Below, in pieces: positions 7,591-37,975 of a stretch of DNA of 38,604 nt (position 1 is the first letter of the stretch; every line of letters starts with the position of its first letter). The stretch is from a virus. The notes below the pieces were generated by a model. That model was not told the DNA's origin and searched no databases. It was given only the letters and a program-made list of their open reading frames with translations. A program made the position numbers and the translations under genes. The DNA lies in the IMG/VR virus record IMGVR_UViG_3300020177_000024, positions 1-38,604 of that record; one strand, 5' to 3'.

Positions 7591-7639
7591 ACTTTTACAG
7601 ATATTTTACTTCAACTAAAAATTGTGGTAGTGATTTGAC

Positions 7640-8887: not shown

Positions 8888-8996
8888 AGAATCTAATATA
8901 TTTAGAAATCTTCGTAAAGAAGTTAATGTTGGTGCTAATGGCACTCAAAAATATGTTATTAAAAAAGGTATTAACAAAGGTAAAATAGCTGAATGA
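8832..8996 (+). CDS. Small Lys-rich hypothetical protein (54 aa)
   Basis: The frame runs from 8832 and ends in an ATGA overlap with the next gene. The protein is helical at about 1-30 (KTIEKFLKTKEQKIKES), followed by a short GANGTQKYVIKKGINKGK segment. It overlaps the preceding small gene by 56 bases. No family is recognised. The precise stop/start overlap with the next gene supports it. Confidence 0.5.
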   Translation: MRDTKTIEKFLKTKEQKIKESNIFRNLRKEVNVGANGTQKYVIKKGINKGKIAE

Positions 8997-9367
8997 AAAT
9001 TAATGATAACACAAGTATCGGTCTACCATTAAGAAACTTAATAGGTTTGATTGGTTCTATTGTTATTGGAGCTTGGTTTGCCTTTGGTGTTATTGAAAGA
9101 TTGAATCAATTAGAAACTAAAAATCAATTATTTGAACAAGACTTATTAGCTGCATCTAAGCAATTACCTATAGACCAAGAACAGTTTATGTTGCTTGAAC
9201 ATATTGCAGAACAAGTAGAAAAATTAGAACAAAACCAAGAACAAAACATGACTAATAAAGTTAATATTGAAAGACTACAATCTGATGTTGAAAGACTTAG
9301 AATTGACGTAGAAAAATTAAAAGATTCAGTAAGAGCTAATATTGGTAAATTAAATGGAAGTCATTAA
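8993..9367 (+). CDS. Single-pass membrane protein with long coiled coil (lysis-region)
   Basis: This 124-residue protein has one membrane segment at about 13-34 (LRNLIGLIGSIVIGAWFAFGV), followed by heptad-rich Leu/Gln/Glu helices to the end. One membrane helix plus a periplasmic coiled coil recalls i-spanins or tail-anchored holin partners. The start is ATGA-coupled to the preceding gene, and its end overlaps the next ATG (TAATG). Function as a spanin or holin regulator is inferred. Confidence 0.6.
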   Translation: MKINDNTSIGLPLRNLIGLIGSIVIGAWFAFGVIERLNQLETKNQLFEQDLLAASKQLPIDQEQFMLLEHIAEQVEKLEQNQEQNMTNKVNIERLQSDVERLRIDVEKLKDSVRANIGKLNGSH

Positions 9368-9585
9368 TGTATCAATTAGTGTTTGCATTATGTTTGTTTA
9401 TTAATGGTGAGCTTGTAGAACACAGAATACAAGATAGCTTATCTACTTGTCTTAAAATGAAACGAGAAGCAACTAGAAATATGGATATGAATAACAAACA
9501 ATTTATGTGTGGTGAAGTAGAAGCTGAATTAGAGAATAATATTGATGGTAGCAAAACTATTAAAAAAATAGTAAAGTCTAAGTAA
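9367..9585 (+). CDS. Secreted Cys-containing small protein
   Basis: This 72-residue protein has a short hydrophobic N-terminus (YQLVFALCLFI), then two further cysteines at about 28 and 48, in the context STCLKMKREA...FMCGEVEAELE. The layout suggests export and a disulfide in the periplasm. It is translationally coupled on both sides (TAATG). It resembles the following gene in layout, and both may belong to one family common in marine phages. The function is unknown. Confidence 0.6.
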   Translation: MYQLVFALCLFINGELVEHRIQDSLSTCLKMKREATRNMDMNNKQFMCGEVEAELENNIDGSKTIKKIVKSK

Positions 9586-9800
9586 TGAAGTTCATATTAG
9601 CTTTTAGTATATGTTCTGCAATTACAGGATATTGTAATAATACTGCTACATTACCTACTGAATTTAATAGTTGGTCAGAATGTGTAAATGGTGGTGGTAA
9701 ATTAATACAAACTTTTTCAGTAGAAATGAAAGAATCTATTGAAGATAGAAAGCTATACTTAAATTATTTTTGTAATGAAATTAATAAAGAAGGTGCATAA
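9585..9800 (+). CDS. Secreted Cys-containing small protein, similar in layout to its neighbour
   Basis: This 71-residue protein begins with a signal-like stretch (KFILAFSICSAITGYC). It then has SWSECVNGGGKLIQ at about 30-43 and a late Cys in NYFCNEIN. The pattern of N-terminal hydrophobic segment, then S..C, then C.E, repeats that of the preceding protein. It is probably exported with disulfides. The possible lipobox around C17 is not convincing. The coupled starts mark an operon. Confidence 0.6.
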   Translation: MKFILAFSICSAITGYCNNTATLPTEFNSWSECVNGGGKLIQTFSVEMKESIEDRKLYLNYFCNEINKEGA

Positions 9801-9973
9801 TGGCTAAATCTACAGTTAATAAGTCTGGTAATTATACTAAACCAGCTATGAGAAAAAGAATATTTAATAGAATTAAATCAGGATCTAAAGGTGGTCGTCC
9901 TGGACAATGGTCTGCAAGAAAGGCTCAAATGTTAGCTAAAGCTTATAAAAAAGCTGGAGGTGGCTATAAATAA
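9800..9973 (+). CDS. Small basic phage protein (57 aa), PGQWSARKAQ type
   Basis: The ATG overlaps the previous stop, and the stop overlaps the next ATG (TAATG at both ends). The second half carries KGGRPGQWSARKAQ, then LAKAYKKAGGGYK, a pattern I recognise from small phage proteins of unknown function. It is strongly basic throughout. It heads a run of three short basic proteins that may bind nucleic acid. Confidence 0.75.
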   Translation: MAKSTVNKSGNYTKPAMRKRIFNRIKSGSKGGRPGQWSARKAQMLAKAYKKAGGGYK

Positions 9974-10209
9974 TGGCACTCTCTAAAAGACAACAATCAT
10001 TAAAAAATTGGACTAAACAAAAGTGGAGAACATCTTCTGGTAAACCTAGTAAAGGTAAACGTAGATATTTACCTGATCAAGCTTGGAAATCTTTAAGCCC
10101 TAGCGAGAAAGCTGCTACTAATAGAGCTAAAGCTAAAGGCAATAAAAAAGGCAAACAGTTTGTTAAACAACCTAAAAAAATTGCTAAAAAAACTGCGAGG
10201 TATAGATAA
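9973..10209 (+). CDS. DUF5872-like small basic protein
   Basis: This 78-residue protein has the ordered features of the DUF5872 group: KWRTSSGKPSKGKRRYLP at about 17-34, AWKSLSPSEKAATNRAKAKG in the middle and KQFVKQPKKIAKKTARYR at the C-terminus. The function of the family is unknown. Its charge suggests nucleic-acid binding. The tight TAATG junctions place it in one transcript with its neighbours. Confidence 0.8.
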   Translation: MALSKRQQSLKNWTKQKWRTSSGKPSKGKRRYLPDQAWKSLSPSEKAATNRAKAKGNKKGKQFVKQPKKIAKKTARYR

Positions 10210-10490
10210 TGGCTAAAACTGCTGCATGGCAACGTAAAGAAGGTAAAGATCCTAAAGGTGGACTTAATCGTAAAGGTGTTGCATCTTATAGACGAGCTAA
10301 TCCTGGATCTAAATTAAAGATGGCAGTAACTACTAAACCATCTAAACTTAAACCTGGATCTAAAGCTGCTAAACGTAGAAAATCTTTTTGTGCTAGAATG
10401 AAAGGCATGAAGAAAAGACTTACTTCTGCTAAGACTGCAAGAGATCCAAATTCTAGAATAAATAAATCACTTAGAAAGTGGAATTGTTAG
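10209..10490 (+). CDS. DUF6321-like small basic protein
   Basis: This 93-residue protein has an N-terminal TAAWQRKEGKDPKGGLNRKG, a central PGSKAAKRRKSFCARMKGMK at about 51-70 and the C-terminal ending LRKWNC. This arrangement is that of the DUF6321 group found in many phages. The conserved Cys residues (about 61 and 93) and the high charge point to a nucleic-acid or metal-binding role, which is untested. Confidence 0.8.
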   Translation: MAKTAAWQRKEGKDPKGGLNRKGVASYRRANPGSKLKMAVTTKPSKLKPGSKAAKRRKSFCARMKGMKKRLTSAKTARDPNSRINKSLRKWNC

Positions 10491-10503
10491 GAAAAATATT
10501 TAC

Positions 10504-10881
10504 ATGTGGTTGAACTTAATTTCTTTGGGTGTTAAAACAGCATCTCATTTATACAAAAATAAACAACAAACTAAAATGTTAATGTCAGATGCTCAGCGAG
10601 TACATGCTGAACGTATGGCTAAAGGTGAACTTGAATATAAAGCAAAAATTATTGAGAGTAATGATAATGGTTGGAAAGACGAATTTGTCCTTGTTCTCGT
10701 ATCTTTGCCTATTCTGTTATTGGGTTGGTCTGTGTTTTCTGACGATCCAGAGATTCGTGCTAAGTTAGATCTATTTTTTGAATATTTTAAAAACTTACCT
10801 TACTGGTATCAGGCAATCTTTATAGGTGTTGTTTCTGCAATATATGGGCTTAAAGGTGCTGATATAATGCGAAAGAAATGA
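10504..10881 (+). CDS. Holin-like membrane protein (GTA-holin type)
   Basis: This 125-residue protein has a charged, helical N-terminus (1-57) ending in NGWKDEF. It then has a hydrophobic segment at about 61-77 (VLVLVSLPILLLGWSVF) and another at about 100-118 (YWYQAIFIGVVSAIYGL), with a short basic tail. The arrangement matches the holin family of gene transfer agents, which forms inner-membrane pores at lysis. It ends in an ATGA overlap with the next gene. Confidence 0.7.
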   Translation: MWLNLISLGVKTASHLYKNKQQTKMLMSDAQRVHAERMAKGELEYKAKIIESNDNGWKDEFVLVLVSLPILLLGWSVFSDDPEIRAKLDLFFEYFKNLPYWYQAIFIGVVSAIYGLKGADIMRKK

Positions 10882-13380: not shown

Positions 13381-13674
13381 ATGGTTAATAATATACAAAA
13401 CTTTATATCAAACAATTATAATATCAATATAAATATTTTAAAAGGTGTTGATAAGGTTAAGAATGATAGAGATTATTTTTTTTATAATCTATCAATTCTA
13501 ATATCTTACCTTTTGCAACCTACGAAAGAGTATGGTTGCAGAAGTAAAATCCTTTACTATCATAATTGTAAATCTACTAATAAATTGTTAAGACTCTATA
13601 ATAAATATGAATCTAATCTACTCTTTAAAAATAAAGTAGATAAATTGATAGTTGAATGGAAAAACCAGAAATAG
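13381..13674 (+). CDS. Hypothetical protein, Asn/Ile/Lys-rich
   Basis: The frame is open from further upstream, but the ATG at 13381 is the last Met before the conserved-looking part, giving 97 residues. There is no good ribosome site. The N-terminal 20 residues are Asn/Ile-rich and may in fact be promoter DNA. From about residue 22 (VDKVKNDRDYFFYNLSILIS) it looks helical. The end overlaps the next gene by 19 bases. I do not recognise it, and it may be partly or wholly noncoding. Confidence 0.4.
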   Translation: MVNNIQNFISNNYNININILKGVDKVKNDRDYFFYNLSILISYLLQPTKEYGCRSKILYYHNCKSTNKLLRLYNKYESNLLFKNKVDKLIVEWKNQK

Positions 13675-14153
13675 TTAGAAAAATTATAGACAAACGTGGT
13701 GTCTATTTTAATATTAGAGAATCTCGTTTAGATTATATGTTCCATAGAGGAAATATATCTGAACATCAATATATTGCTGGATCTAGATATAGACGTTTAT
13801 GTGAAAGTGCACAGTTTGGTGGTAGAGCTGCATCATTTGAACCAAAGGTTGATAATGCTGATACTAATTCATTTGAGTCTAAGCTTGGAGCTATATTTCA
13901 TTTAGTTGCTATCTCAAGGGATCTTGGCGATCTTAGGACCAAAGTCCTAAAGCTATTCTGTTATGAAAACTACTCTATCAAAGAGTTATGTAAAAAACTA
14001 AATTTATCTAATCGAAAAACTTCTAATTCTATACAAGACTCTTTAACTGAACTTGCTATATTTTTTGGGTTGATTAAACAACATAATACTATAAGAGGTA
14101 GAGGTGTCAAAAAGATGGAAATCAAAAAAATACTTAATGTGGATAGCAAGTAA
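13656..14153 (+). CDS. DUF6456-like helix-turn-helix regulator
   Basis: This 165-residue protein contains RESRLDYMFHRGNISEHQY at about 22-40, AGSRYRRLCESAQFGGRAAS and then FEPKVDN. A C-terminal helix-turn-helix-like stretch follows (ENYSIKELCKKLNLSNRKTS at about 109-128). This order is that of the DUF6456 group of alphaproteobacteria and their phages, which looks like a sigma/antitermination-type DNA-binding protein. Being early and rightward, it is a candidate switch for the late module. The regulatory role is inferred. Confidence 0.6.
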   Translation: MEKPEIVRKIIDKRGVYFNIRESRLDYMFHRGNISEHQYIAGSRYRRLCESAQFGGRAASFEPKVDNADTNSFESKLGAIFHLVAISRDLGDLRTKVLKLFCYENYSIKELCKKLNLSNRKTSNSIQDSLTELAIFFGLIKQHNTIRGRGVKKMEIKKILNVDSK

Positions 14154-20310: not shown

Positions 20311-20429
20311 TAATCGTCTTTGGTTTTAAAGATACTTTTAATACCTTTGTATGCAATAAACATGCTACCTAGCTCAATAATTAATTTTGCGGCTAGTAGC
20401 ACAAGAACAATACCTATTAACAAGTCCAT
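20310..20429 (-). CDS. Tiny membrane protein (39 aa)
   Basis: The start overlaps the previous stop (TAATG). Residues 2-27 are hydrophobic (MDLLIGIVLVLLAAKLIIEL), followed by a short basic tail (KGIKSIFKTKDD) that would stay in the cytoplasm. It is a single-pass membrane peptide of unknown role. Confidence 0.5.
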   Translation of the reverse strand: MDLLIGIVLVLLAAKLIIELGSMFIAYKGIKSIFKTKDD

Positions 20430-20596
20430 TATTTGTCTCCTTTCTGTGTATACTTATACCAAGCTAATGATCTTCTAATATACTTTCTATATATCTCATC
20501 TTGGTTTAACTCTTTTGTAGTAGGTGTAATACCTATGTCGCTATATCTGAAGTCAAATACTAGCTGATTAGGCTTCTTTTCATGTATCTTATTCAT
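20429..20596 (-). CDS. First gene of leftward early block B, hypothetical (55 aa)
   Basis: The ATG at 20596 is chosen for AAAGGAGAAATTACAA before it. A longer frame from 20653 has no ribosome site. The protein begins MNKIHEKKPNQLVFDFRYSD and has a basic C-terminus (RKYIRRSLAWYKYTQKGDK). Being promoter-proximal, it is probably made very early. No family is recognised. Confidence 0.55.
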   Translation of the reverse strand: MNKIHEKKPNQLVFDFRYSDIGITPTTKELNQDEIYRKYIRRSLAWYKYTQKGDK

Positions 20597-20991
20597 TTGT
20601 AATTTCTCCTTTCTTGAATAAAAACAACAGTTTAATTCATATCCCATATTCAAATAATCAATGGATTTAGCCCAATGTTACTTGAACATAGGATACAAGG
20701 TGAGGTAATCCCCTCACAAGTGAGGGCGATTAGCGAACAAACCACATAAAACATTTACTTATTGATAGACAAATATAAATATATATGCATTTTGCGTAGC
20801 TCATAAGAGCTACAGCTGTGCAAAATGTGAGAAAGTTGTAAGAGCCAAAGCGACAGCTTTGACAACAGCAAAACAAGGGGTTTTAAATCAACCCCAAGCG
20901 AAATGTAGCAAAGTGAATAAAATAATAAAAGGGAGGTAGCTACAGCTCCCATACAAACAGGGGGGGTTTTCCCCTATAACAAGGAGATAAT
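20597..20991. promoter_or_regulatory. Divergent control region with six consecutive inverted repeats
   Basis: This is the largest noncoding stretch. It separates the leftward early genes from the rightward late module and must hold promoters for both. The inverted repeats in order are: H1 20706-20732 (TAATC+CCCTCAC, GTGAGGG+GATTA, one bulged C), H2 20788-20827 (CATTTTGC+GTAGCTC, ATAA loop, GAGCTAC, 6-base bulge, GCAAAATG), H3 20835-20866 (GTTGT, CAAAGC/GCTTTG, ACAAC), H4 20877-20895 (GGGGTT/AACCCC), H5 20931-20950 (GGGAG/CTCCC) and H6 20959-20975 (G-run/TTTT/CCCC). A TTGATA at 20762 followed by TATA-rich DNA is a weak rightward promoter candidate. An origin or packaging site is possible. Confidence 0.6.
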
Positions 20992-21285
20992 ATGTACGCA
21001 GCACTAGCAAGATTTGGATATGGATTAGCAAAAAAAATTAGACCTTCCAAAATTAAAAAAGCATTGAAACCAGCTTATGATAAAGCTACTAAAAAAGCAT
21101 TCACAGGAGCTAAAATGAGCTCTTTAGAAGACAAAGGCATAAAAGCCATACAAGGTGCCTCACAAAAGGCTTATAAGGGCTACAGAAAGGCCTATGGAGC
21201 AGCATTAGGTACTTCTACAAGAAGAAAGGTTACTTCATCAGCTTTAGGTGGATACACTATAGGACAGATGTTTGACGATCTATAA
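20992..21285 (+). CDS. First late gene, basic Ala/Gly-rich protein (97 aa)
   Basis: AACAAGGAGATAAT precedes the ATG. The protein is very basic in its first 35 residues (LAKKIRPSKIKKALKPAYDK), with an Ala/Gly/Tyr-rich region and an acidic end (IGQMFDDL). It opens the rightward structural transcript. A minor virion or DNA-associated role is a guess from charge. No family is recognised. Confidence 0.6.
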   Translation: MYAALARFGYGLAKKIRPSKIKKALKPAYDKATKKAFTGAKMSSLEDKGIKAIQGASQKAYKGYRKAYGAALGTSTRRKVTSSALGGYTIGQMFDDL

Positions 21286-21419
21286 TGGCTAAGCAGAAGT
21301 TTGTCCATTATGTACCAAGACCTAAGCCTCCAAAGCGAAAAGGTGTTCATAAAAAATCAAAAAATAAACACGAAAAACGTCAAATGAAATTGACAAGATA
21401 CAAAGGACAAGGTAGATAA
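21285..21419 (+). CDS. Small basic protein (44 aa), 'FVHYVPRPKPP' type
   Basis: It is coupled to its neighbours on both sides by TAATG. It begins MAKQKFVHYVPRPKPPKRKG and continues with HKKSKNKHEKRQMK and a final YKGQGR. I recognise this layout from small proteins in marine phages. The function is unknown, and the high charge suggests nucleic-acid contact. Confidence 0.65.
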   Translation: MAKQKFVHYVPRPKPPKRKGVHKKSKNKHEKRQMKLTRYKGQGR

Positions 21420-21556
21420 TGAAAAATCCAATAAATATGTGGAAGTTTCCAATTAAAAAGCAATTAGAGCTTAGAAGGGAAATGAAAAAAAACTTCAAAT
21501 CTAAAAAATTTAAGCAAAAAACTAAAATCTTAGAATATGCTAAGAAGTTTATATAA
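21419..21556 (+). CDS. Small Lys-rich protein (45 aa)
   Basis: The start overlaps the previous stop. It is strongly basic and helical (MKNPINMWKFPIKKQLELRR, then EMKKNFKSKKFKQKTK). No family is recognised. It is one of a series of basic small proteins upstream of the terminase genes. Confidence 0.55.
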   Translation: MKNPINMWKFPIKKQLELRREMKKNFKSKKFKQKTKILEYAKKFI

Positions 21557-21565
21557 GGAGAAAGA

Positions 21566-21886
21566 ATGAAATACAGTAAAATAGCAAGTAAAGCTAAAGA
21601 CGTTGCAAAAAAAACAAAAGCATTTGCAAAAAAAAATAAAAAACCATTATTAGCTGGAGCAGCTGGAGCTGGTGCAGGAGCAGTAGGTGGATATGGTTCA
21701 GGTAAATCTAAAGCTAAAAAAGAAGCAAGAAAAGCAATAGCACAAATGTCTATATCAGACGCAGCAAATTCACTTGGAATTAAAAATGCAAGGGGTTTGT
21801 CTATTGAAGATAAAAGAAAAATAGCTAAAAGAGCTTCTGAAATGGTTAACAAAAGATTAAAACAAGCCAAAAAATTTTATAGCTAA
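21566..21886 (+). CDS. Basic protein with Gly/Ala-rich hydrophobic segment (106 aa)
   Basis: AAGGAGAAAGA precedes the ATG. Residues 1-27 are Lys-rich. Residues about 28-47 form a small-residue hydrophobic stretch (PLLAGAAGAGAGAVGGYGSG). Then follow two basic helices. A similar layout is seen in the first late gene and at 22402, so these may be related minor virion proteins that touch membrane and DNA. No family is recognised. Confidence 0.6.
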   Translation: MKYSKIASKAKDVAKKTKAFAKKNKKPLLAGAAGAGAGAVGGYGSGKSKAKKEARKAIAQMSISDAANSLGIKNARGLSIEDKRKIAKRASEMVNKRLKQAKKFYS

Positions 21887-21888
21887 TA

Positions 21889-22122
21889 ATGGAAAAAAAA
21901 TTAGAACAACTAGCTAACGATCTTATGAGTTTATCTAAAGAAGATGCTCAAAGACTTCAAATAATTATTAAAGCTAAACTAATGCCTGAAGTTGAAAAAC
22001 AAAGAGGTTTATTACAACAACAGCAAAATCCTGCTATGGCTCAAATGGGAAGACAACCAACACAAATGCCAAGAGTTGCTTCTCAAAGAGATATTAGAAT
22101 GCAGGGTTTATTAAATAGATAG
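21889..22122 (+). CDS. Gln/Met-rich helical protein (77 aa)
   Basis: Residues 1-40 are helical (EQLANDLMSLSKEDAQRLQI). Residues about 41-65 are Gln- and Met-rich and probably disordered (RGLLQQQQNPAMAQMGRQP). It ends in a basic RDIRMQGLLNR. The start follows the previous stop by two bases. No family is recognised. Confidence 0.55.
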   Translation: MEKKLEQLANDLMSLSKEDAQRLQIIIKAKLMPEVEKQRGLLQQQQNPAMAQMGRQPTQMPRVASQRDIRMQGLLNR

Positions 22123-22130
22123 GATAAACT

Positions 22131-22235
22131 ATGCCAATGGTAGGAAAAAAGAAGTTTGCATATACTAAGAAAGGCAAAGAAGCTGCTAAAAAATATGCTA
22201 AAAAAAAGAAAATGAAAGTTAAGAAAAAATACTAA
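22131..22235 (+). CDS. Very small Lys-rich protein (34 aa)
   Basis: It begins MPMVGKKKFAYTKKGKEAAK and is about half lysine thereafter. Its stop overlaps the next ATG (TAATG), and AGGATAAACT precedes its ATG. Very short proteins with this MVGKKKF.YT..GK beginning occur in other phages. The function is unknown. Condensing or neutralising DNA is possible from charge. Confidence 0.6.
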   Translation: MPMVGKKKFAYTKKGKEAAKKYAKKKKMKVKKKY

Positions 22236-22402
22236 TGAAAAAAAAACCAAAGCTAGGATCTGGAAAAAGATTTAAACAATTATCTGCTAAGCTTAAAAAA
22301 CAAGGAGTTAAAAATCCTAAAGCACTAGCAGCAGCTATTGGTAGAAAAAAATATGGCAAAGCTAAATTTCAAAAAATGGCTGCCAAAGGGAGAAAGAAAT
22401 AA
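22235..22402 (+). CDS. Small basic protein (55 aa), 'GSGKRF...GRKKYG' type
   Basis: It is coupled on both sides by TAATG. It contains LGSGKRFKQLSAKLKKQGVK, NPKALAAAIGRKKYGK and FQKMAAKGRK, a recognisable small phage protein pattern with no known function. The central LAAAIGRKKYG helix and high charge suggest a nucleic-acid-binding helix. Confidence 0.65.
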   Translation: MKKKPKLGSGKRFKQLSAKLKKQGVKNPKALAAAIGRKKYGKAKFQKMAAKGRKK

Positions 22403-22644
22403 TGGCTAAACAAAAATTTTACGCACCAACTAAATATTCAAAACCAAGAGCTATGCTTGGCAAAGCTAAAAAAATGATTGGTAAAGTTGGAAGATTAACA
22501 GGTGCTGGATTAGCTTTAACAGCTGCTGGTTATATTGCAGGTACAAGTAGCAGAAGATATAAAAAAGCTCCTAAACCAGGAGAGAATAGAGATCTAAGAG
22601 ATATGATTTTAGATCAACCAAGCAAAAGGACTTATTACTTATAA
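22402..22644 (+). CDS. Basic protein with hydrophobic segment (80 aa)
   Basis: It begins MAKQKFYAPTKYSKPRAMLG, sharing the MAKQKF start with the 44-residue gene at 21285. A Gly/Ala-rich hydrophobic segment lies at about 33-50 (GAGLALTAAGYIAGTSS), and the tail is charged. It is coupled to the small terminase candidate by TAATG. The function is unknown. Confidence 0.6.
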   Translation: MAKQKFYAPTKYSKPRAMLGKAKKMIGKVGRLTGAGLALTAAGYIAGTSSRRYKKAPKPGENRDLRDMILDQPSKRTYYL

Positions 22645-22925
22645 TGGCTACATTAGGTGGAAAAAGAGAAGGAGCAGGTAGACCAAAAGGATCTACTAAA
22701 AAAAAGAAGTGGAAGATGCTAGATGATCTAGCTCAAAAATATAATCATTCTCCACTTGACTATTTGCTTTCAATCCTTAATAATCCCATGTCATCACCAG
22801 AAAGAAAAATGATGGCAGCAGAAAAAGCTGCACCTTACGTTCATGCTAAACTTGCGACTACGACTACAAAATTAGGATCTGATGGCCCAATCAAAATCAA
22901 CATCAAGTGGGGAGACGAAAACTAA
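22644..22925 (+). CDS. Putative small terminase subunit
   Basis: This 93-residue protein begins with GGKREGAGRPKGSTKKKKWK, an AT-hook-like basic motif common at the start of phage small terminase and packaging proteins. A helical segment with YLLSILNNPMSSPERKMMAA at about 41-60 follows. It overlaps the large terminase gene by 44 bases. The small subunit recognises the packaging site and stimulates the large subunit. It is shorter than most small subunits. The assignment rests on position and motif. Confidence 0.6.
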   Translation: MATLGGKREGAGRPKGSTKKKKWKMLDDLAQKYNHSPLDYLLSILNNPMSSPERKMMAAEKAAPYVHAKLATTTTKLGSDGPIKINIKWGDEN

Positions 22926-24183
22926 GACTATTGCAATACCTTATAGTCCTAGACCATTACAACGAGAAGTACATAATAGTTTAAAAAGATTTAATGTACT
23001 TGTTTGTCATAGACGATTTGGAAAATCGGTATTAGCTATTAATCAACTGATTAAAACAGCTGTATCAAAACCAATGTCTAAATGTGCATTCGTAGCTCCG
23101 ACATATAGGCAAGGTAAATCTATTGCTTGGGAATATTTAAAACAATATACCAAACCATTGATGTATCTTGGTGGAAGTAAAAACGAAACAGAATTAAAAA
23201 TAGAATTGTTTAATGGATCAGCAATACAAATATTTGGGGCTGACCATCCAGATAGTTTGAGGGGCATGGGGTTTCATGGAGTTGTCCTGGACGAATATGC
23301 CATAATGGCTCCTCGAGTTTGGACAGAAATTATAAGACCTGCTATATCTGATCATCTTGGTTGGGTTATGTTTATTGGAACACCAATGGGCCATAATCAA
23401 TTTTGGGAAGTATATGATTTTGCATTAAGAGGTCATAAAGATTGGTTTGGTCAATTATATAGAGCTAGTGAAACTAAAGTTATTCCTGACGAAGAATTAA
23501 AACAAGCTCGGGATATAATGACAGAAGAACAGTTCCAACAGGAATTTGAATGTTCTTTTACAGCAGCAGTTTCAGGAGCTTATTTTGGTAAGCTAATTAG
23601 TAAAGCAGAAAAAGAAAAACGAATTGGTGAAGTGCCTGTTGATGAACATGTTGGAGTTGAGACGTGGTGGGATTTGGGCATAGGAGATTCAACTGCAATT
23701 TGGTTTGCACAAAGAGTTAATGACGAAATACATTTGATTGACTATTATGAAAACTCAGGTGAGAGTTTAGCACATTATGCAGATGTTCTTGATGAAAAGA
23801 ACTATGCTTATGAAAGACATATTGCACCTCATGATATTCAAGCAAGAGAATTAGGAACTGGTAAATCAAGACTTGAAGTTGCTCAGGATCTAGGTATAGA
23901 TTTTGAAGTAGCTCCAAAATTAGAAGTTGATCATGGTATCGAATCTGTTAGGAATGCTTTACCGAATTGTTGGTTTGATAGAGAAAAATGCAAATTAGGT
24001 TTGGATGCATTAAGACAATATCGAAAACAATGGGATGAGAAAAATCAAGTTTTTAAAAACAAACCTCTACATGATTGGTGCTCACATGCAGCTGACGCAT
24101 TTAGATATGGATGCGTTCATGATCCTGTAGATACAACTGACTGGGATAGACCAATAGACGTAACAACTAAATATATTATATGA
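22882..24183 (+). CDS. terL: Terminase large subunit
   Basis: This 433-residue protein has an ATPase half with Walker A CHRRFGKS at 42-49, Walker B VVLDEYA at 134-140 and a FIGTPMG coupling motif at 164-170. The nuclease half has D264 in WWDLGIGDS, D318 in APHDIQ and DAFRYG at 405-410. It drives DNA into the procapsid with ATP and cuts the concatemer. The length is usual for the family. Its stop overlaps the portal start by four bases (ATGA). The absence of a clear terminal repeat outside coding DNA would fit headful packaging. Confidence 0.95.
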   Translation: MAQSKSTSSGETKTKTIAIPYSPRPLQREVHNSLKRFNVLVCHRRFGKSVLAINQLIKTAVSKPMSKCAFVAPTYRQGKSIAWEYLKQYTKPLMYLGGSKNETELKIELFNGSAIQIFGADHPDSLRGMGFHGVVLDEYAIMAPRVWTEIIRPAISDHLGWVMFIGTPMGHNQFWEVYDFALRGHKDWFGQLYRASETKVIPDEELKQARDIMTEEQFQQEFECSFTAAVSGAYFGKLISKAEKEKRIGEVPVDEHVGVETWWDLGIGDSTAIWFAQRVNDEIHLIDYYENSGESLAHYADVLDEKNYAYERHIAPHDIQARELGTGKSRLEVAQDLGIDFEVAPKLEVDHGIESVRNALPNCWFDREKCKLGLDALRQYRKQWDEKNQVFKNKPLHDWCSHAADAFRYGCVHDPVDTTDWDRPIDVTTKYII

Positions 24184-26336
24184 AAAAAACAGATAACGAA
24201 ATTATATCAATTTTAAATAGAGAGATAAGAGCTTCATCAGGTTATATTGGTGGAGAAATAGTTTCTAAAAGAAGAAAATCATTAGAGTATTATCTTGGTA
24301 AACCATTTGGTAATGAAGTAGAAGGTAGATCACAAGTTATATCAACAGATGTTTCTGATACTGTTGAAAGCTTAATGCCTTCTTTAATGAAAATATTTAC
24401 AGCTGGAGATAATGTATTTAGCTGTGAGCCTGTTGGCCCTGAAGATGAAGATATAGCTAAACAAGCTAGTGATTATATTAATCATGTATTCTATAAAGAG
24501 AATAAAGGCTTTGAAGCTTTATATACTGCGTTTAAAGATGCGTTAATTCAAAAGAATGGTATCTTAAAAGTTTATTGGGATGATTCTCAAAAGACTACTA
24601 GAGAAGAATACAAAAAGCTAACTGATGATGAATTTAATTTATTAGTTACAGATCCTGAAGTTAAAGTTTCACAACATACAGAATACGAAGAAGAATTTAA
24701 AGATGATAATGATAAGGTAATTGATACAATTACTTTTCATGATTGTGTAATTCATAAGACAGTTGGATATGGTCAAGTTAGAATTGAGCCTATTCCACCT
24801 GAAGAATTTTTAATTGAACGTAGAGCTAAGTCAATAGACTCAGCTAACTTTGTTTGTCATAGAGTTAATATGACTAAAACACAATTAATAGAAATGGGAT
24901 ATGATAGAGATGTTATTGAAAGTATGCCTGTTGGAGATCATGAATATTATTTAGAAGATAGACAAACTAGACACCAGGAGACAGATTTTTCAGCTCCACA
25001 AGATAGAGGTGATGAAACTACTGATGAAGTTTTAATTCATGAATGTTATGCAAGAATAGATATTGATGATGATGGTAAAGCAGAATTAGTTAAAATTTGT
25101 TTAGCTGGTAATGGATCTTATAAATTACTTGATGTTCAAGAAATAGATTCAATGCCATTTGTTTCTGTTACTCCAATTATCATGCCACACAGATTCTATG
25201 GTAGATCTGTTTCAGAATTAATTGAAGATATACAAATTATTAAATCTACTGTTATGAGACAAATGTTAGATAACATGTATCTAACTAACAATAACAGAAT
25301 AGCTGTCCAGGATGGACAAGTAGCTATTGATGATCTTTTAACTAACAGACCTGGTGGAATTGTTAGAACTAAACAACCACCACAAAATGTTATGCAAGTC
25401 ATGACAGCACAACCTATTACAGAACAAGCTTCTGGTTTATTAGGTTATTTAGATGCTGTTAGAGAAGCAAGATCAGGTGTTACTAAAACAGCTCAAGGAT
25501 TAAATGCTGATGCATTAAATACTGATACAGCAACTGGTATGAACCAAGTCCTAACTCAATCTCAAATGAGAATGGAATTGATTGCTAGAATATTTGCTGA
25601 AACAGGTGTTAAAGATTTAGGTGCAAAAATATTTGAATTACTTTGCAAGTATCAACAAAAAGAAAAGCTTGTTAGAATTAGAGGTAAGTTTGTACCAATG
25701 ACTCCTTTTGAATGGAGAGATAGAGTTAATATAAATGTAGAAGTAGGATTAGGTACAGGTTCTAAAGAACAACAACTAATTCTTTTAAATTCTATATTAC
25801 AGAAACAATTACAAGCAATTAATCTACAACAGAATGTTTATGGCCCAATGGTCAATCTTAAAAACATTCATAAAACTTTACAAAAGTTAGTAGAGAATAC
25901 TGGATTAGGAAGTGCAGAACCATACTTTATGGATCCAGAAGTAGGTGCAGCTCAAATGCCACCACTTCCTCCTAAACCACCAACTGAATTTGAAAAGGTT
26001 TCATTAGCCCAAGTACAAGGTGAAAACGAAAGAGCTATCTTAAGTGCTCAAGTTGAGACTAAGAAAATGGAAGCTCAAATGAGACAGAAATTGCTTGACT
26101 TTGAATTACAAATCAAAGAAATGGAATTAAAATATAATACTCAGATTAATGAGCTTGAAATGCGTAATAGAAGTATGATAGAACAGCAACAAGTTAGACA
26201 ATCAGGGGATATATTTAAAGAGATAATGAAAGGTCAAAAACAATTCTTCAATGAAAAAGGATCTAAGCAAACAGATTTCGGAGGGGGTGAAAGCTCAGCA
26301 ACTGCTGGACGAACCCCTGATGAAGGAAGCATTTGA
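24180..26336 (+). CDS. Portal protein (P22/SU10-type)
   Basis: This 718-residue protein is the usual length for P22-like portals. An N-terminal RRKSLEYYLGKPFGNEVEGR and TDVSDTVESLMPSLMKIFTAG occur at about 30-80. There is a central PHRFYGRSVSELIEDIQIIK at about 335-355 and VREARSGVTKTAQGLNADAL near 425-445. A long Gln/Glu-rich coiled coil follows from about 610. It forms the ring at the capsid vertex through which DNA passes and to which the head-tail adaptor binds. It follows the terminase directly. Confidence 0.9.
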   Translation: MKKTDNEIISILNREIRASSGYIGGEIVSKRRKSLEYYLGKPFGNEVEGRSQVISTDVSDTVESLMPSLMKIFTAGDNVFSCEPVGPEDEDIAKQASDYINHVFYKENKGFEALYTAFKDALIQKNGILKVYWDDSQKTTREEYKKLTDDEFNLLVTDPEVKVSQHTEYEEEFKDDNDKVIDTITFHDCVIHKTVGYGQVRIEPIPPEEFLIERRAKSIDSANFVCHRVNMTKTQLIEMGYDRDVIESMPVGDHEYYLEDRQTRHQETDFSAPQDRGDETTDEVLIHECYARIDIDDDGKAELVKICLAGNGSYKLLDVQEIDSMPFVSVTPIIMPHRFYGRSVSELIEDIQIIKSTVMRQMLDNMYLTNNNRIAVQDGQVAIDDLLTNRPGGIVRTKQPPQNVMQVMTAQPITEQASGLLGYLDAVREARSGVTKTAQGLNADALNTDTATGMNQVLTQSQMRMELIARIFAETGVKDLGAKIFELLCKYQQKEKLVRIRGKFVPMTPFEWRDRVNINVEVGLGTGSKEQQLILLNSILQKQLQAINLQQNVYGPMVNLKNIHKTLQKLVENTGLGSAEPYFMDPEVGAAQMPPLPPKPPTEFEKVSLAQVQGENERAILSAQVETKKMEAQMRQKLLDFELQIKEMELKYNTQINELEMRNRSMIEQQQVRQSGDIFKEIMKGQKQFFNEKGSKQTDFGGGESSATAGRTPDEGSI

Positions 26337-26523
26337 TTATTTAGCTGACAGATATAAGTCAGAAATTTTCAATACTTCTTACAGTGACCATGAACAAAGA
26401 CAAGTTCTTTGGATGGCATATAACATGATCGATAAAGTAAAAGGTCATTTATTGTCTGTCATGGAAAATGGTAAACTAGCTTCTGCCGAGCTAGAACAAT
26501 TAAATGGCTTAACCAGAAAATAG
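26251..26523 (+). CDS. Small head-module protein overlapping the portal gene (90 aa)
   Basis: The first ATG is at 26251, inside the portal gene. A GTG at 26287 behind GGAGG is a possible alternative start. Residues about 24-75 (MKEAFDYLADRYKSEIFNTS, then QRQVLWMAYNMIDKVKGHLL) are the recognisable part, a helical pattern found after portal genes in related phages. The overlap is 86 bases in another frame. The function is unknown. It may be a head-assembly accessory. Confidence 0.65.
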   Translation: MKKDLSKQISEGVKAQQLLDEPLMKEAFDYLADRYKSEIFNTSYSDHEQRQVLWMAYNMIDKVKGHLLSVMENGKLASAELEQLNGLTRK

Positions 26524-26573
26524 GAAGCCAATCTCGCCAATCTTAATCGAAGCGATAACTATAGGAGAAACAT

Positions 26574-27578
26574 ATGAATACAGATAAATCTGTACAAGGT
26601 GCTGCTGATAAAATTGCAGGAATACTGAACCCTGAAGAAGGACAATCAGAACCTACAACTAAAGTAGAGCCATCAGAACAAGCCGAACCTGAAGCTGTTG
26701 AACAAGAAGCTCCAGTTGAAGCTGCTCAAGAAAGCAACCAAACCGAGACTGAGGAAGTTGCTACAGAAGCTACAAGTCCTGAGAATCAAGAAACGAATGA
26801 GAATGAAACTGAATTACAAGAACAAGTTGAGGAACCTTCACTCCACCGAGTAAAAGTAAATGGTCAAGAGTTAGAGGTTAGCCTTGATGAACTTAAGTCA
26901 GGTTATTCAAGAGATTCGGATTACCGACAAAAAACACATTCTTTATCTTTAGAAAGAAAAAATCTTGAAGAAGAAAAAGGTGTTTTGCGTCAAACGTATG
27001 ATACTAAGTTAAAAGAACTTGATGAGTTAATGCATTCAGCAAATAGTTTTATCAGTCAAGGTTCTGAAGTTGATTTAAAAGCTATGTATGAGGAAGATCC
27101 TCAAGCAGCTGCTAAATTAGATTTCCAAATGAGACAGCAAAGAGAAAATCTAGCTGAACTTAGACAGAGATCAGAAGCTGTTAAACAACAGCAATATAAT
27201 CAATTTCTTAATGAACAAAAACAACTAGCTGAACAGGCAATACCTGAGCTATCTAATCCTCAGAAAGCATCAGATCTAAAAGTCAAAATGAGAAATACAT
27301 TATCTGACTATGGATTTAATGATCAAGAGATTGGTAGTTTAGCTGATCATAGATTTCTTAAAGTTTTAAAAGATGCTATGGATTATAGAAACTTAAAAGC
27401 TGCAAAACCTATTGTTCAAAAGAAAGTAGTTAATGCACCTAAAGTTGTTAAGTCTGGAACAGCAAAAACTGAAAGTTCTAAAAGAAGTGTCATACAATCT
27501 AAACTTGGTAGAGTGAAAAAGTCTGGTAAAATCCAGGATGCTCAATCTGCCATACTTGAAATAATCTCAAATAAATAA
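26574..27578 (+). CDS. Scaffolding protein
   Basis: This 334-residue protein has an acidic, Glu/Pro/Gln-rich N-terminal third (about 18-90). It then has LHRVKVNGQELEVSLDELK at about 92-110 and a YSRDSDYRQKTHSL motif. Helical coiled coil follows, and a basic C-terminus (VVKSGTAKTESSKRSVIQSK). This is the layout of podovirus scaffold proteins, and it lies directly before the capsid gene. It would organise capsid subunits and then leave the procapsid. TATAGGAGAAACAT precedes the ATG. Confidence 0.85.
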   Translation: MNTDKSVQGAADKIAGILNPEEGQSEPTTKVEPSEQAEPEAVEQEAPVEAAQESNQTETEEVATEATSPENQETNENETELQEQVEEPSLHRVKVNGQELEVSLDELKSGYSRDSDYRQKTHSLSLERKNLEEEKGVLRQTYDTKLKELDELMHSANSFISQGSEVDLKAMYEEDPQAAAKLDFQMRQQRENLAELRQRSEAVKQQQYNQFLNEQKQLAEQAIPELSNPQKASDLKVKMRNTLSDYGFNDQEIGSLADHRFLKVLKDAMDYRNLKAAKPIVQKKVVNAPKVVKSGTAKTESSKRSVIQSKLGRVKKSGKIQDAQSAILEIISNK

Positions 27579-27590
27579 GGATAAAATAAC

Positions 27591-28538
27591 ATGACACAAG
27601 CAACAAATACATTTGATACCTATGATGCAGTAGGTATTAGAGAAGATCTACAAGATGTTATTTACTCTATCTCTCCAACTGAAACTCCTTTTATGAGTGC
27701 AGCTGCTAGAGAGCAAGTAAAAAACACTTTCCATGAATGGCAAACTGATTCTTTGGCTGCAGCAGTAACTAACAATGCTGTAATCGAAGGTGATGAAGCT
27801 ACATTAGATGCATCAACTGCAACTACTAGAATTGGTAACTACACACAGATTATGGATAAAACTGTTGTAATTACTGGTACACAAGAAGCTGTTGATAAAG
27901 CTGGTAGAGCTTCTGAATTAGCATACCAAATAGCTAAAAAGTCTAAAGAATTAAAAAGAGACATTGAGTCTACTCTTTTGACTAACCAAGCTAGAGCTGC
28001 TGGTTCATCTTCTGCTGCTAGAACATTTGCTTCTATGGGTGCATGGATTGCAACTAACTCAAACAAAGCTTCTGATGGTACTGATCCAACTGCTTCTGAT
28101 GGTTCAGATGCTAGAAATGATGGTACTCAAAGAGCTTTAACTGAGGACATGCTTAAAGATGTAATCAAGGGAACTTGGAATGCAGGTGGTAACCCATCAG
28201 TAATCATGGTTGGCCCTTTCAACAAACAAAAAATTTCTGGTTTCACAGGTGGAAATACTAGATTTGATGCGTCTGAAGATAAAACTTTATACACATCTAT
28301 TGATGTATATTCTTCTGATTTCGGAGATTTAGAAGTTGTTCCAAATAGATTCTCAAGAGATAGAGACGCATTAGTTCTAGATATGGATTACTGGTCAGTT
28401 GGTTTCTTAAGAGATTTCACTATGCATGAACTTTCAAAAACTGGAGATGCTGAGAAAAGACAGATCTTAGCTGAGCTTACTTTGATCTCTAGAAACGAAG
28501 GTGCTTCAGGTGGAGTATTTGATCTTTCAACATCATAA
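27591..28538 (+). CDS. Major capsid protein (DUF5309/SU10 type)
   Basis: This 315-residue protein begins MTQATNTFDTYDAVGIREDL, with IYSISPTETPFMSAAAREQV at about 26-45 and FHEWQTDSLA after it. That is the N-terminus of the DUF5309 major capsid family with the HK97 fold. Conserved later parts are KRDIESTLLTNQARAAGS near 123-140, DVIKGTWNAGGNPSVIMVGP near 188-207 and DMDYWSVGFLRDF near 264-276. It polymerises into the icosahedral shell. A hairpin with a GNRA-type loop follows the stop. Confidence 0.93.
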   Translation: MTQATNTFDTYDAVGIREDLQDVIYSISPTETPFMSAAAREQVKNTFHEWQTDSLAAAVTNNAVIEGDEATLDASTATTRIGNYTQIMDKTVVITGTQEAVDKAGRASELAYQIAKKSKELKRDIESTLLTNQARAAGSSSAARTFASMGAWIATNSNKASDGTDPTASDGSDARNDGTQRALTEDMLKDVIKGTWNAGGNPSVIMVGPFNKQKISGFTGGNTRFDASEDKTLYTSIDVYSSDFGDLEVVPNRFSRDRDALVLDMDYWSVGFLRDFTMHELSKTGDAEKRQILAELTLISRNEGASGGVFDLSTS

Positions 28539-28550
28539 TAATTAATTTGG

Positions 28551-28568
28551 TGGGGGAGCAATCCCCCA
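28551..28568 (+). terminator. Hairpin with GCAA loop after the capsid gene
   Basis: TGGGGGA (28551-28557) and TCCCCCA (28562-28568) pair perfectly around GCAA, a stable GNRA loop. It starts 12 bases after the capsid stop. There is no clean T-run after it, so it may protect or process the transcript 3' end, or terminate partially. Confidence 0.6.
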
Positions 28569-28643
28569 TCATACTAACAATAATTTTGTTTGGTCTTTGA
28601 AGATTTTTGAAGTCGGAACGAAGCAAATAAAAAGGAAAAAAAA

Positions 28644-28991
28644 ATGAGAACACTTAACGATTATTTTTTAACTGCAAAAATAACAGATATTTCTACTGCT
28701 GGTTCAACATTTGTTGCTGTACCTGATGGTGGAAAAATTATTAAAATTTTTTCAAGCATTAAAAATGCTATTACTACTGCTGATGCAGCTTTATCATTTG
28801 AAATTGGTGGAACTGCAATCACTAATGGTGGTATAACTGTAACTCAATCTGGTTCAGCAGCAGGTGATGTAGACACATCTACACCTTCAGCAGCAAACTC
28901 AGTTGAAGAAGGTGATGCAATCGAAATGATTTCAGATGGTGCATCTGCAACAGCTTGTGAAGCAATAATAACATTTGTTATTAGAAGATAA
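28644..28991 (+). CDS. Possible head decoration protein (115 aa)
   Basis: This strand-rich 115-residue protein is high in Ala, Thr, Ser and Ile, as in GKIIKIFSSIKNAITTADAA at about 30-49, and ends CEAIITFVIRR. It lies between two GC-rich hairpins directly after the capsid gene, where capsid-coating proteins are usually found. The start follows AAAAAGGAAAAAAAA. The position and composition make decoration likely. No family signature is seen. Confidence 0.55.
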   Translation: MRTLNDYFLTAKITDISTAGSTFVAVPDGGKIIKIFSSIKNAITTADAALSFEIGGTAITNGGITVTQSGSAAGDVDTSTPSAANSVEEGDAIEMISDGASATACEAIITFVIRR

Positions 28992-28998
28992 TTAATTA

Positions 28999-29016
28999 GG
29001 GGGTGGTAACACCCCC
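28999..29016 (+). terminator. Hairpin with GTAA loop after the decoration-protein candidate
   Basis: GGGGGTG (28999-29005) and CACCCCC (29010-29016) pair perfectly around GTAA, again a GNRA-type loop. It begins eight bases after the stop codon and before the next ribosome site. Like its partner after the capsid gene, it lacks a T-run. Confidence 0.6.
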
Positions 29017-29033
29017 AACTAAAGGAGAAAATA

Positions 29034-29300
29034 ATGCATTTAGCAATGAAACCAAAATCAACAGAAAAAGTTACTTCATCTGGTACTTCAACACAATCTT
29101 CAGCAATATCTGATAATATCTTTTACGTTAGAGTTGCAGCAGATGCTGCTTGTCATATAGAAATCGGTATAAACCCAACAGCAACTACTTCATCAATATA
29201 TTTACCTGCTGATGATTATGAATATTTTAAAATATCGCCAGGCGAAAAGGTAGCTGTAATTGGAACTGTAAACGCATATATTACTGAACTAACTGAGTAA
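29034..29300 (+). CDS. Small strand-rich virion protein candidate (88 aa)
   Basis: AAAGGAGAAAATA precedes the ATG. The protein is rich in Thr/Ser, with strands FYVRVAADAACHIEIGINP and DYEYFKISPGEKVAVIGTVN. This resembles small beta-sandwich proteins such as decoration or fibre-base subunits. Its stop overlaps the next ATG (TAATG). A role in the head or its neck is inferred. Confidence 0.55.
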   Translation: MHLAMKPKSTEKVTSSGTSTQSSAISDNIFYVRVAADAACHIEIGINPTATTSSIYLPADDYEYFKISPGEKVAVIGTVNAYITELTE

Positions 29301-29626
29301 TGAGCATACTAAGAGATAAAGAAAAAGATGGTACTTCTTATTATGTAGAAACTGATGGTAAACTAACAGTTAAAAAAACTGAAAATGTTACCAATCTACT
29401 AAAAAGAAATAAAGAGCTATACAATCAGAATGATGGATATACTCCATCTAAAGATATGAAACGTATAGCTAGTATTCCAAGACTAATGTTAGAAATTTGG
29501 ACTAAAGAATACAATGGTACTAATAATTGGTTTGCTTTACCTCAAGAAGTTAGAAGTAAAATATTAAGAGAAAAATTAAATAGTTCTGATTTTAGATATT
29601 TTAGAACTGCACCAGGAAGAATGTAA
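29300..29626 (+). CDS. Hypothetical head-module protein (108 aa)
   Basis: It begins MSILRDKEKDGTSYYVETDG. The second half is helical and charged (KDMKRIASIPRLMLEIWTKE, then PQEVRSKILREKLNSSDFRY). TAATG junctions occur at both ends. A position between capsid-type and adaptor genes fits a head-completion or assembly role. It is not recognised. Confidence 0.55.
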   Translation: MSILRDKEKDGTSYYVETDGKLTVKKTENVTNLLKRNKELYNQNDGYTPSKDMKRIASIPRLMLEIWTKEYNGTNNWFALPQEVRSKILREKLNSSDFRYFRTAPGRM

Positions 29627-30291
29627 TGGCACTAAATACTTATTCTGCACTTAAAACATCTATAGCTAATTGGCTTAACAGAAGTGATTTAACTTCTGAA
29701 ATAGCTAATGACTTTATTAAATTAACTGAAGCTGACTTTAATGCTAAGTTAAGAATAAGACAAATGGAACAAAATGATTCTATTACTATTAATGCTGAAA
29801 CAGTAACAGTACCTTCAGGATTTATTGGTGTTAGATCTTTTTACATTCTATCTGGTGGAACTAAATATCATTTAAATTATATTACACCTTCTAACTTAAT
29901 ATCTATTAAAGGTGGTTCAACAGCAGGTATGCCAAGAACTTATACTATTGAATCAGATAATGGTACAGAAAGTTTTAGATTTGCACCACAACCAGACACA
30001 TCATACACAGGCTATCTACAATACTACAAAGCTTTTAATGAATTATCAGATAGCAATACAACTAATTATATTTTATTAAATCATCCTGCTATTTATTTAT
30101 ATGGATCATTATATCATGCTGCTAATTTTTTAGGTGGTATAGAGCCTAATCAAGCTCAACAATGGTTAGGTATGTATTCAGCTGCTATGGAAAGAGCTGA
30201 GAATAATGACCAACAAGATTCTTATGGTGGTGCACCAGTTGTACAAAGAACAGATATTGGAACTGATTTATCATTTTATAGAAGAAAATAA
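29626..30291 (+). CDS. Head-to-tail adaptor (P22 gp4/phage adaptor type)
   Basis: This 221-residue protein begins MALNTYSALKTSIANWLNRS, then DFIKLTEADFNAKLRIRQME. It has a strand pair with SGFIGVRSFYILSGGTKYH and a late NHPAIYLYGSLYHAANFLGG at about 147-166. That order matches the adaptor proteins that form a ring under the portal. It follows the head genes and precedes a gp10-like gene, the order expected for a P22-type neck. Confidence 0.75.
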   Translation: MALNTYSALKTSIANWLNRSDLTSEIANDFIKLTEADFNAKLRIRQMEQNDSITINAETVTVPSGFIGVRSFYILSGGTKYHLNYITPSNLISIKGGSTAGMPRTYTIESDNGTESFRFAPQPDTSYTGYLQYYKAFNELSDSNTTNYILLNHPAIYLYGSLYHAANFLGGIEPNQAQQWLGMYSAAMERAENNDQQDSYGGAPVVQRTDIGTDLSFYRRK

Positions 30292-30293
30292 TT

Positions 30294-31754
30294 ATGCAAA
30301 TACCTTTTGGAGAATGGCTACCTGATCAACCACAGCATATGAATCCTGGAGCTAATGTTGCTACCAATGTTTATTATGCTTTAAATTCTTATAAAAGATT
30401 TCCTTCATTGGTAAACTATTCATCAAATAATATAAGCACAGATTCAAGAGGAGCTGGATCTTTTAGAGATAATGCTAATAATGTTTATAACTTTGTAGCT
30501 AATAATACAGATATTTATCAATTAGATGGTGGAACATTTACCTCAAGAAAAGGATCTTTAACTGGTGATAATACAGATTTTTGGACATTTACTCAGTTTG
30601 GTAACTATGTAATAGCTTCAAATGGTGTAGATTTACCTCAGTATTTTTTAATGGGTACATCTACTAATTTTGCTAATTTATCGTCATTAGGATCTGGTGT
30701 TCCTAATTTTAGAGTTTCAGGTGTAGTTAGAGACTTTTTAGTTACTGGTAACTTGACAACAGGTTCTAACACAATACAATGGTCAGGAATTAACGATATT
30801 TCAGAATGGACTCCTGGTACTAAACAATCAGATTCACAAGACCTTCCAGGTTCTGGTGGACAGATAGTACATATAACTTCTGGAGAGATCGGTTACGTAT
30901 TTAGACAAAACCAAATAATCCGAATGGACTATGTTGGTGGTGCAACAGTATTTAGACTATCAGTTATATCTCCTAATAGAGGAGCTGTATATGGTAGAAC
31001 AGTATGTCAGGATAACAGACGTGTATTCTTTTATGCTGATGATGGTTTTTTTGAAATTAATGGAGATCAAGTTATTTCTATTGGTGCAGAAAAAGTAAAC
31101 AGATTTTTTGATACAGATTTAAACAAAGCATTTAGCGATAGAGTTTGTGCTGCTGTTGATCCATTTAATCAGTTAGCATTATGGTTATATCCTAGCTCAA
31201 ATAATACTAGCAATACAACTGGTATTTGTGATAGAATATTAATTTATAATTATGCAACTAAAAAATGGTCTTTAGCAAATACAAATGCTAGTACAATATT
31301 TTCTCAATTCGTTGGTGCTTATACAGTAGAATTAATGGATATTATATCTCAAAACTTAGATCAGATTAATATTGCATTAGATACAGATTTTTGGTCAGGT
31401 GGACAACTATTACTTGGTGCAATAGATAACGAATACAAGGCTGCTATTTTTTCTGGTACTGCAAATCAAGGAGAAATAGAAACAAGTGAAGTTGAGTTGT
31501 TTCCTGGTTTTAGAAGTAACATACAATCTATTAGACCAATAGTAGATGCACAAGCAAGTGTTACTATTAAAACTAGAGACAGACTTGCAGATAATGTTAA
31601 TGAGTCTAGTGAAATATCTATGAACTCAACTGGTATTAATCCAGTAAGACAATCTGGAAGATATGTTAAAATTAATGTTAAAACACCTAGTGGTGTAGCT
31701 TGGTCAGATGCTCAAGGTATTGATTTAGTTGCATCAAGAGCAGGATTAAGATGA
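30294..31754 (+). CDS. P22 gp10-like tail/stabilisation protein
   Basis: This 486-residue protein begins with MQIPFGEWLPDQPQHMNPGA. It has repeated strand segments such as NNVYNFVANNTDIYQLDG, FGNYVIASNGVDLPQYF and FRQNQIIRMDYVGGATVFRL, and later NRGAVYGRTVCQDNRRVFFY. This beta-propeller-like arrangement fits the packaged-DNA stabilisation/tail-tube protein of P22-type neck structures. It overlaps the next small gene by four bases (ATGA). Confidence 0.75.
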   Translation: MQIPFGEWLPDQPQHMNPGANVATNVYYALNSYKRFPSLVNYSSNNISTDSRGAGSFRDNANNVYNFVANNTDIYQLDGGTFTSRKGSLTGDNTDFWTFTQFGNYVIASNGVDLPQYFLMGTSTNFANLSSLGSGVPNFRVSGVVRDFLVTGNLTTGSNTIQWSGINDISEWTPGTKQSDSQDLPGSGGQIVHITSGEIGYVFRQNQIIRMDYVGGATVFRLSVISPNRGAVYGRTVCQDNRRVFFYADDGFFEINGDQVISIGAEKVNRFFDTDLNKAFSDRVCAAVDPFNQLALWLYPSSNNTSNTTGICDRILIYNYATKKWSLANTNASTIFSQFVGAYTVELMDIISQNLDQINIALDTDFWSGGQLLLGAIDNEYKAAIFSGTANQGEIETSEVELFPGFRSNIQSIRPIVDAQASVTIKTRDRLADNVNESSEISMNSTGINPVRQSGRYVKINVKTPSGVAWSDAQGIDLVASRAGLR

Positions 31755-31900
31755 CAGATAGAACAGACGTTGATAACGTAAGATATAGTTTTGAAACTCA
31801 AGAGTTTTTTCAAAGACAAATTGAAGAAGCTATAAACACACTTATTAATGAAAAGAATCAAGAAAACAACAAAGCTTATGCTTGGTTTATAGGAGACTAA
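31751..31900 (+). CDS. Small hypothetical tail-region protein (49 aa)
   Basis: It is ATGA-coupled to the gp10-like gene. The protein is helical (NVRYSFETQEFFQRQIEEAI, then NTLINEKNQENNKAYAWFIG) and ends where the long fibre gene begins. It has the look of a small assembly helper or adaptor. No family is recognised. Confidence 0.55.
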   Translation: MTDRTDVDNVRYSFETQEFFQRQIEEAINTLINEKNQENNKAYAWFIGD

Positions 31901-35299: not shown

Positions 35300-35316
35300 C
35301 AACAAAGGAGAAAACT

Positions 35317-35574: not shown

Positions 35575-35576
35575 TA

Positions 35577-37088: not shown

Positions 37089-37100
37089 GGAGATAAAATT

Positions 37101-37442: not shown

Positions 37443-37455
37443 TAGGAGATAAACT

Positions 37456-37746: not shown

Positions 37747-37747
37747 T

Positions 37748-37966: not shown

Positions 37967-37975
37967 TAATTCTAA

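Follow-up and report, generated by a model that had tools for sequence, protein, structure and literature searches.

At the large divergent junction (20.6-21.0 kb) of a marine podovirus genome, two unlike structured elements stand back to back, one ahead of the leftward genes and the other ahead of the late operon, and comparison with relatives established them as conserved and strand-specific. Based on this arrangement, we infer divergent promoters whose transcripts both carry structured leaders, the rightward one acting in cis to modify host RNA polymerase for the late operon, a mechanism to which we would give about an even chance. The paired leaders probably help the virus to express its ~28 kb late, i.e., particle-building, operon with host RNA polymerase.

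The junction and its inverted repeats

On sequence grounds, the window (the whole 38,604-nucleotide stretch that was analysed, IMG/VR record IMGVR_UViG_3300020177_000024) is the genome of a marine podovirus of the wider HTVC010P/HTVC106P type, with a terL gene (22,882-24,183) of 50.5% identity to that of HTVC106P and, downstream of it, genes for portal, scaffold and capsid. Although the record is classed as linear, it is a closed (complete) genome, because its ends overlap (1-213 and 38,392-38,604; 213 bp, 2 of them mismatched) and a second contig, L235, connects the right end to the left end at 99.9% identity. The same two observations indicate that the plus-strand late genes to the right of the junction are contiguous from 20,992 to 38,604 and onward from 1 to 10,881, a span of ~28 kb, and leftward genes occupy the other side. 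The skew changes sign at the junction. The part of the late region between the leader and terS (21,285-22,644, plus strand) holds a run of small, very basic proteins, and further along there are internal repeats of ~70% and ~90% identity (32,339-32,901 and 35,957-36,580) in the tail-fibre gene and a downstream 503-aa gene. The features of the junction are as follows.

20,429-20,596, minus strand: first leftward gene, with its start codon at 20,594-20,596 and a Shine-Dalgarno sequence at 20,606-20,610 (from the sequence and the list of open reading frames)
20,640-20,695, minus strand: block A, the leftward leader hairpin, with a long stem, a small internal loop and a top stem of 3-4 bp
20,696-20,705, no strand assigned: junction between the leaders, with presumed overlapping divergent promoters; AT-rich, and TATAAT-like in many relatives
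20,706-20,732, plus strand: H1, an 11-bp hairpin with a 1-nt bulge on the 3' side and the loop CAAG (folding z -5.5)
20,787-20,828, plus strand: H2, a 16-bp hairpin with a 6-nt bulge, AGCTGT, on the 3' side (z -3.5)
20,846-20,861, plus strand: H3, CAAAGC-GACA-GCTTTG followed by AC (z -3.9)
20,877-20,895, plus strand: H4, the left box of block C, GGGGTTTTAAATCAACCCC, with GGGTTT and ACC invariant in 48 sequences
20,896-20,930, plus strand: insert of block C, free in sequence and nearly fixed in length
20,931-20,950, plus strand: H5, the right box of block C, GGGAGGTAGCTACAGCTCCC (consensus AGGGGGGTTNNNTACAGC)
about 20,959-20,975, plus strand: H6, a third G-rich tract, GGGGTTT-like in some relatives and at variable distance
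20,992-21,285, plus strand: first late gene, encoding 97 aa without a family match, with its Shine-Dalgarno sequence at 20,982-20,986

The earlier note had described H1 to H6 as six inverted repeats, and all six were found where it placed them, with slight corrections to the stems: the single bulge of H1 and the 6-base bulge of H2 stood, and the stems came to 11 and 16 bp rather than 12 and 15 bp. It had also put the array ~1.7 kb upstream of the terminase genes, which agrees with distances of 1.65 kb to terS and 1.9 kb to terL. Folding of 20,690-20,995 on both strands, the check that it proposed, revealed a clearly structured region, 5.4-5.8 standard deviations better than shuffles (z -5.4 on the plus strand and -5.8 on the minus strand as RNA, and -5.6 for the plus strand folded as DNA, with zero shuffles as good as the RNA or the DNA folds); the stretch from H4 to H6 taken together reached only -1.8, in contrast to the individually strong H1, H2 and H3. 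The raised G+C that had been reported holds against the left side (37-42% versus ~29%) but not against the coding sequence on the right, which is also 39-42%. As for the two proposed rearrangements of the stems, GTGAGG at 20,700-20,705 and CCTCAC at 20,712-20,717 are indeed present, as are both copies of the 10-base AGCTACAGCT, in H2 and in H5, at the positions reported for them. Neither the alternative pairing of H1 nor the swap between H2 and H5 was seen in relatives, in which the outer context of H1 differs; the TACAGC of H5 is part of a conserved box, while H2 is specific to the window's clade.

The two leaders among relatives

Relatives were gathered by a terL search and by two DNA patterns. 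Block C was present in 150 fetched loci, some of which are overlapping copies of one contig, and wherever terL was on the locus it followed on the same strand, at a distance of 1.5-3.3 kb; the first plus-strand ORF (at least 40 aa) mostly began 19-106 nt beyond block C, and minus-strand genes lay upstream. The mean folding z-scores of 44 diverged leaders were -5.5 on the plus strand and -5.05 on the minus strand. The comparison with related phages that the earlier note had recommended revealed conservation of structure with compensatory changes, i.e., in block A, in H1 and in a class of hairpins with the flanks GA-C..G-AC.

Block A, which lies immediately left of the array and had been missed, is the strongest conserved structure of the region. 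It is part of the leftward operon's 5' untranslated region, ends ~30 nt before the Shine-Dalgarno sequence of the first gene, and has the loop GCUAAAU on the minus strand (ATTTAGC on the plus strand). The window's copy folds at -25.5 kcal/mol on the minus strand (z -5.7), as against -12.2 kcal/mol on the plus strand (z -1.1). Read on the plus strand, the non-Watson-Crick pairs in relatives comprised 111 A·C, equivalent to G·U on the minus strand, and 0 G·T: the 20 pairs in 16 relatives of one loop type gave 260 Watson-Crick, 56 A·C, 0 G·T and 4 other cells, and two further loop types added 55 A·C and 0 G·T. Since the symmetry of DNA would not yield an asymmetry of A·C only, the identification of block A as a hairpin of the leftward RNA is well supported. 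The short top stem occurred in seven fully paired versions among relatives, and the covariation of block A exceeded that of all 500 shuffles and of every slid version. A covariance model (R2), built from the 16 relatives of one loop type with the window's own type left out, had 20,640-20,695 as its sole match in 38.6 kb (E 0.0075, on a rough calibration).

The rightward leader (20,706-20,950; ~250 nt, with ~290 nt also given) finishes just before the first late gene and runs, with A-rich linkers between its hairpins, from one or more 3'-bulged hairpins through one or more GA-C..G-AC hairpins to block C. Of the 21 distinct large bulged hairpins upstream of block C, all 21 had a 3' bulge and 0 a 5' bulge, a count in which related sequences are not independent and several unrelated stems are represented. 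Both H1 and H2 are of this type, and in four clade variants of H1, 7 of the 11 pairs had changed on both sides, with the loop and the position of the bulge kept. Hairpins of the form GA-C(stem)loop(stem)G-AC, with AACA and GACA as preferred loops, occurred in 32 of 66 leaders (26 distinct), versus 0.1 in shuffled leaders and 0 on the reverse strand; H3 is a variant, with GC in place of GA as its 5' flank. Six of 7 pairs had changed on both sides in ten same-length examples, which were picked for pairing and are thus 100% paired by construction, the real test being the shuffle control. In some of the leader hairpins upstream of block C in L117, L091, L099 and L061, a tandem G·A pair stands in for two Watson-Crick pairs, in a pyrimidine-GA-purine setting and sometimes with different loops.

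Block C consists of GGGTTT(T)..ACCC, a freely varying insert of ~34 nt, and AGGGGGGTT..TACAGC. With 20-60 nt allowed between ACC and the right box, the insert was 34 nt in 67 of 77 matches and 35 nt in 7 (35 nt is also the length in the window), the 3 of other lengths being at least partly chance; many of the loci were fetched by a pattern allowing 31-36 nt, which may under-sample shorter or longer versions, and the first pattern, free of that limit, gave the same insert length. The insert usually contains a hairpin, in registers that differ between relatives, and mutual information in a gapless alignment of block C revealed no common structure; the boxes, invariant in sequence, had no covariation. 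A model of block C (R1), which includes the window's own clade, matches the window at 20,868-20,957 (E 9.5e-15). The single match of the block C sequence pattern in genome_contigs, on a Woesearchaeota MAG contig without terL or portal, looks like chance.

Within what was searched, the element seems confined to an uncultured sub-lineage. When two relatives were compared at the nucleotide level with annotated phages, there were zero matches, and the element was absent from HTVC010P, HTVC106P and Venkman, which were read directly, and from five more records scanned with the models. The weak partial resemblance in HTVC106P (L089) is at 35,053-35,340 on the minus strand, where the partial block C-like GGGGTTTTATTTTTGCCGATACCCC and TAGGGGGGTTTTGT lie on either side of gp67, directly upstream of terL (the pair near terL reading GGGGTTTTA..TACCCC and TAGGGGGGTTTTGT), and these pieces are possibly a distant or decayed relative.

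The right part is less securely RNA, as opposed to single-stranded DNA, than block A is. Its stems are nearly pure Watson-Crick, with few G·U, and the non-standard pairs in the recurrent large hairpins, mostly G·T on the plus strand (L096, L099, L117, L164, L168, L184, L217) with a few A·C, are too few to fix the strand alone. The folding energies of the 44 diverged leaders revealed no clear preference between plus and minus, and a minus preference in a count of single mismatches was discarded once a listing showed that the recurrent long-stem A·C cases belong to block A. The polarity of bulges, flanks and loops, together with the site between the junction and the ribosome-binding site of the late gene, points to plus-strand RNA. 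A long structured leader RNA, one of three options that had been raised for the region, is the best supported of them because of the compensatory changes, the fixed polarity and the constant site before the first late gene, with the amendment that there are two leaders, one per strand, and that the leftward one lies outside the array. The RNA-type G·U pairs of block A make a replication origin less plausible, and no support was found for a packaging site.

Proposed function and alternatives

In the mechanism that we favour, host RNA polymerase would start in the junction between both leaders, and the rightward leader would act on it in cis, either unaided or with a phage or host protein bound to it, much as HK022 put RNA or lambda nut RNA does, such that the ~28 kb late operon is transcribed; the role of the leftward hairpin would be to make the early RNA more stable or to license it in a similar way. 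For HTVC010P-type isolates, dependence on host RNA polymerase has been predicted (PMC10504331). The junction in the window had no recognisable good match to a sigma-70 promoter, and no N- or Q-like protein was confidently found in the window. A 165-aa protein (13,656-14,153, plus strand), in which a helix-turn-helix stretch weakly resembles sigma region 4 (RpoE match, E 0.018), is a weak candidate for a transcription regulator. A bolder form of the proposal, tentative and in our estimation unlikely, is that the leaders represent a new class of phage RNA antiterminator, in which two unlike leaders, one per divergent operon, would reprogram the polymerase supplied by a marine host, probably of SAR11 type, with the late leader doing so via its modular hairpin array and fixed-length-insert two-box module, conserved across an uncultured podovirus lineage.

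The leaders might instead serve the processing and stability of mRNA, with the 3'-bulged hairpins as RNase III-type sites, the 5'-terminal hairpins as protection for early and late mRNAs, and block C as a stability or ribosome-recruiting element. Long, bulged hairpins of variable sequence near a presumed 5' end, a 5'-proximal hairpin on the opposite transcript too, and a leader that precedes a ribosome-binding site would all fit such a role, which leaves unexplained why the GA-C..G-AC hairpins favour a particular loop and flanks and why the block C insert is of near-fixed length; we consider it possible, but not likely. Somewhat less probable is a function of the hairpins as DNA, in a replication origin, a single-strand initiation site or a packaging site. 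The right-hand stems, nearly pure Watson-Crick, fold well as DNA, the skew switches sign at the junction, and the near-fixed spacing of block C could reflect helical phasing, but DNA does not explain a block A that is G·U-rich on one strand only, the change in skew also tracks gene direction, and the terminal repeat reported for the related isolate P. skadi includes terL rather than the junction (PMC10504331).

An attenuator or riboswitch-like switch, in which CCCC would pair with the upstream GGGG or with the downstream GGGGGG-TTTT as antiterminator or terminator, is more doubtful again. Its attraction lies in the invariant GGG-CCC-GGG tracts, which are in the right order and in many relatives have TTTT after the last, but the window's clade is without the T run (GGGAGGTAGC, GGGGGGTTAG), the invariant tracts yield no covariation, and no plus-strand intrinsic terminator was predicted at the window's site; as a general function it was rejected, since conservation does not extend to the U run. 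That inverted repeats or unrelated terminators simply cluster here by chance is very improbable: such repeats, when short, are a frequent feature of AT-rich intergenic DNA in phages, but the z-scores, the covariation and the synteny across diverged relatives contradict this reading.

Returning to the leaders as RNAs that would act on the polymerase, their wider relevance stems from the type of phage concerned: HTVC010P-type phages rank with the most abundant marine viruses and are predicted to depend on host RNA polymerase (PMC10504331), which raises the question of how they switch to late expression. The conserved RNA pair at the main divergent junction is a concrete candidate for this switch that can be tested in vitro, and models of both elements could help to mark the start of the lineage's late operon in metagenomes.

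Likeness to known phage RNA elements

Neither RNA element matches a known Rfam family, there being 0 matches to Rfam 15 at the gathering threshold in the window and ten relatives. A sub-threshold similarity to drum in the window (17.5 bits, against a threshold of 43) was absent in four relatives and is attributed to chance. By analogy, the element would seem to behave like a phage structured leader. T7-type RNase III sites, e.g., are likewise long, bulged, sequence-variable hairpins in phage mRNA, and are without added conserved boxes or a fixed-length insert. The put element acts in early operons and has two adjacent stem-loops in ~70 nt, an arrangement that the leader does not have; put RNA by itself is able to suppress the pausing and termination of RNA polymerase. 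The put of HK022 is alike in being a hairpin RNA in a phage leader before a long operon, with a suggested cis action on host RNA polymerase (PMC9378689), and differs from the longer multi-hairpin late leader described here (~250 nt), whose two-box module has an insert of fixed length and which is accompanied by an unlike hairpin on the opposite strand.

The lambdoid nut site (boxA-boxB with N) offers a parallel in that it, too, is a small phage-leader hairpin whose loop is of a preferred kind and whose flanks are fixed, and the relatives share AGAC flanks and RACA-type loops; the leader differs in that its preferred loop is AACA/GACA, not a boxB loop. By eye, no boxA-like motif was conserved on the plus strand of relatives. 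No N-like protein was confidently found: the small early proteins had no family match, but N proteins are short and poorly conserved. Lambda Q loads through DNA near the promoter; the window had no match to Pfam Q families or to the Q-like proteins of Venkman and MW202481, two wider relatives with genes annotated as antitermination proteins. The late leader of lambda (pR'/6S RNA, Q) is similar in that a short leader separates a late promoter from a late operon of great length, and it is in this setting, a single ~28 kb late operon with one conserved leader, that the element resembles the put, nut and Q systems.
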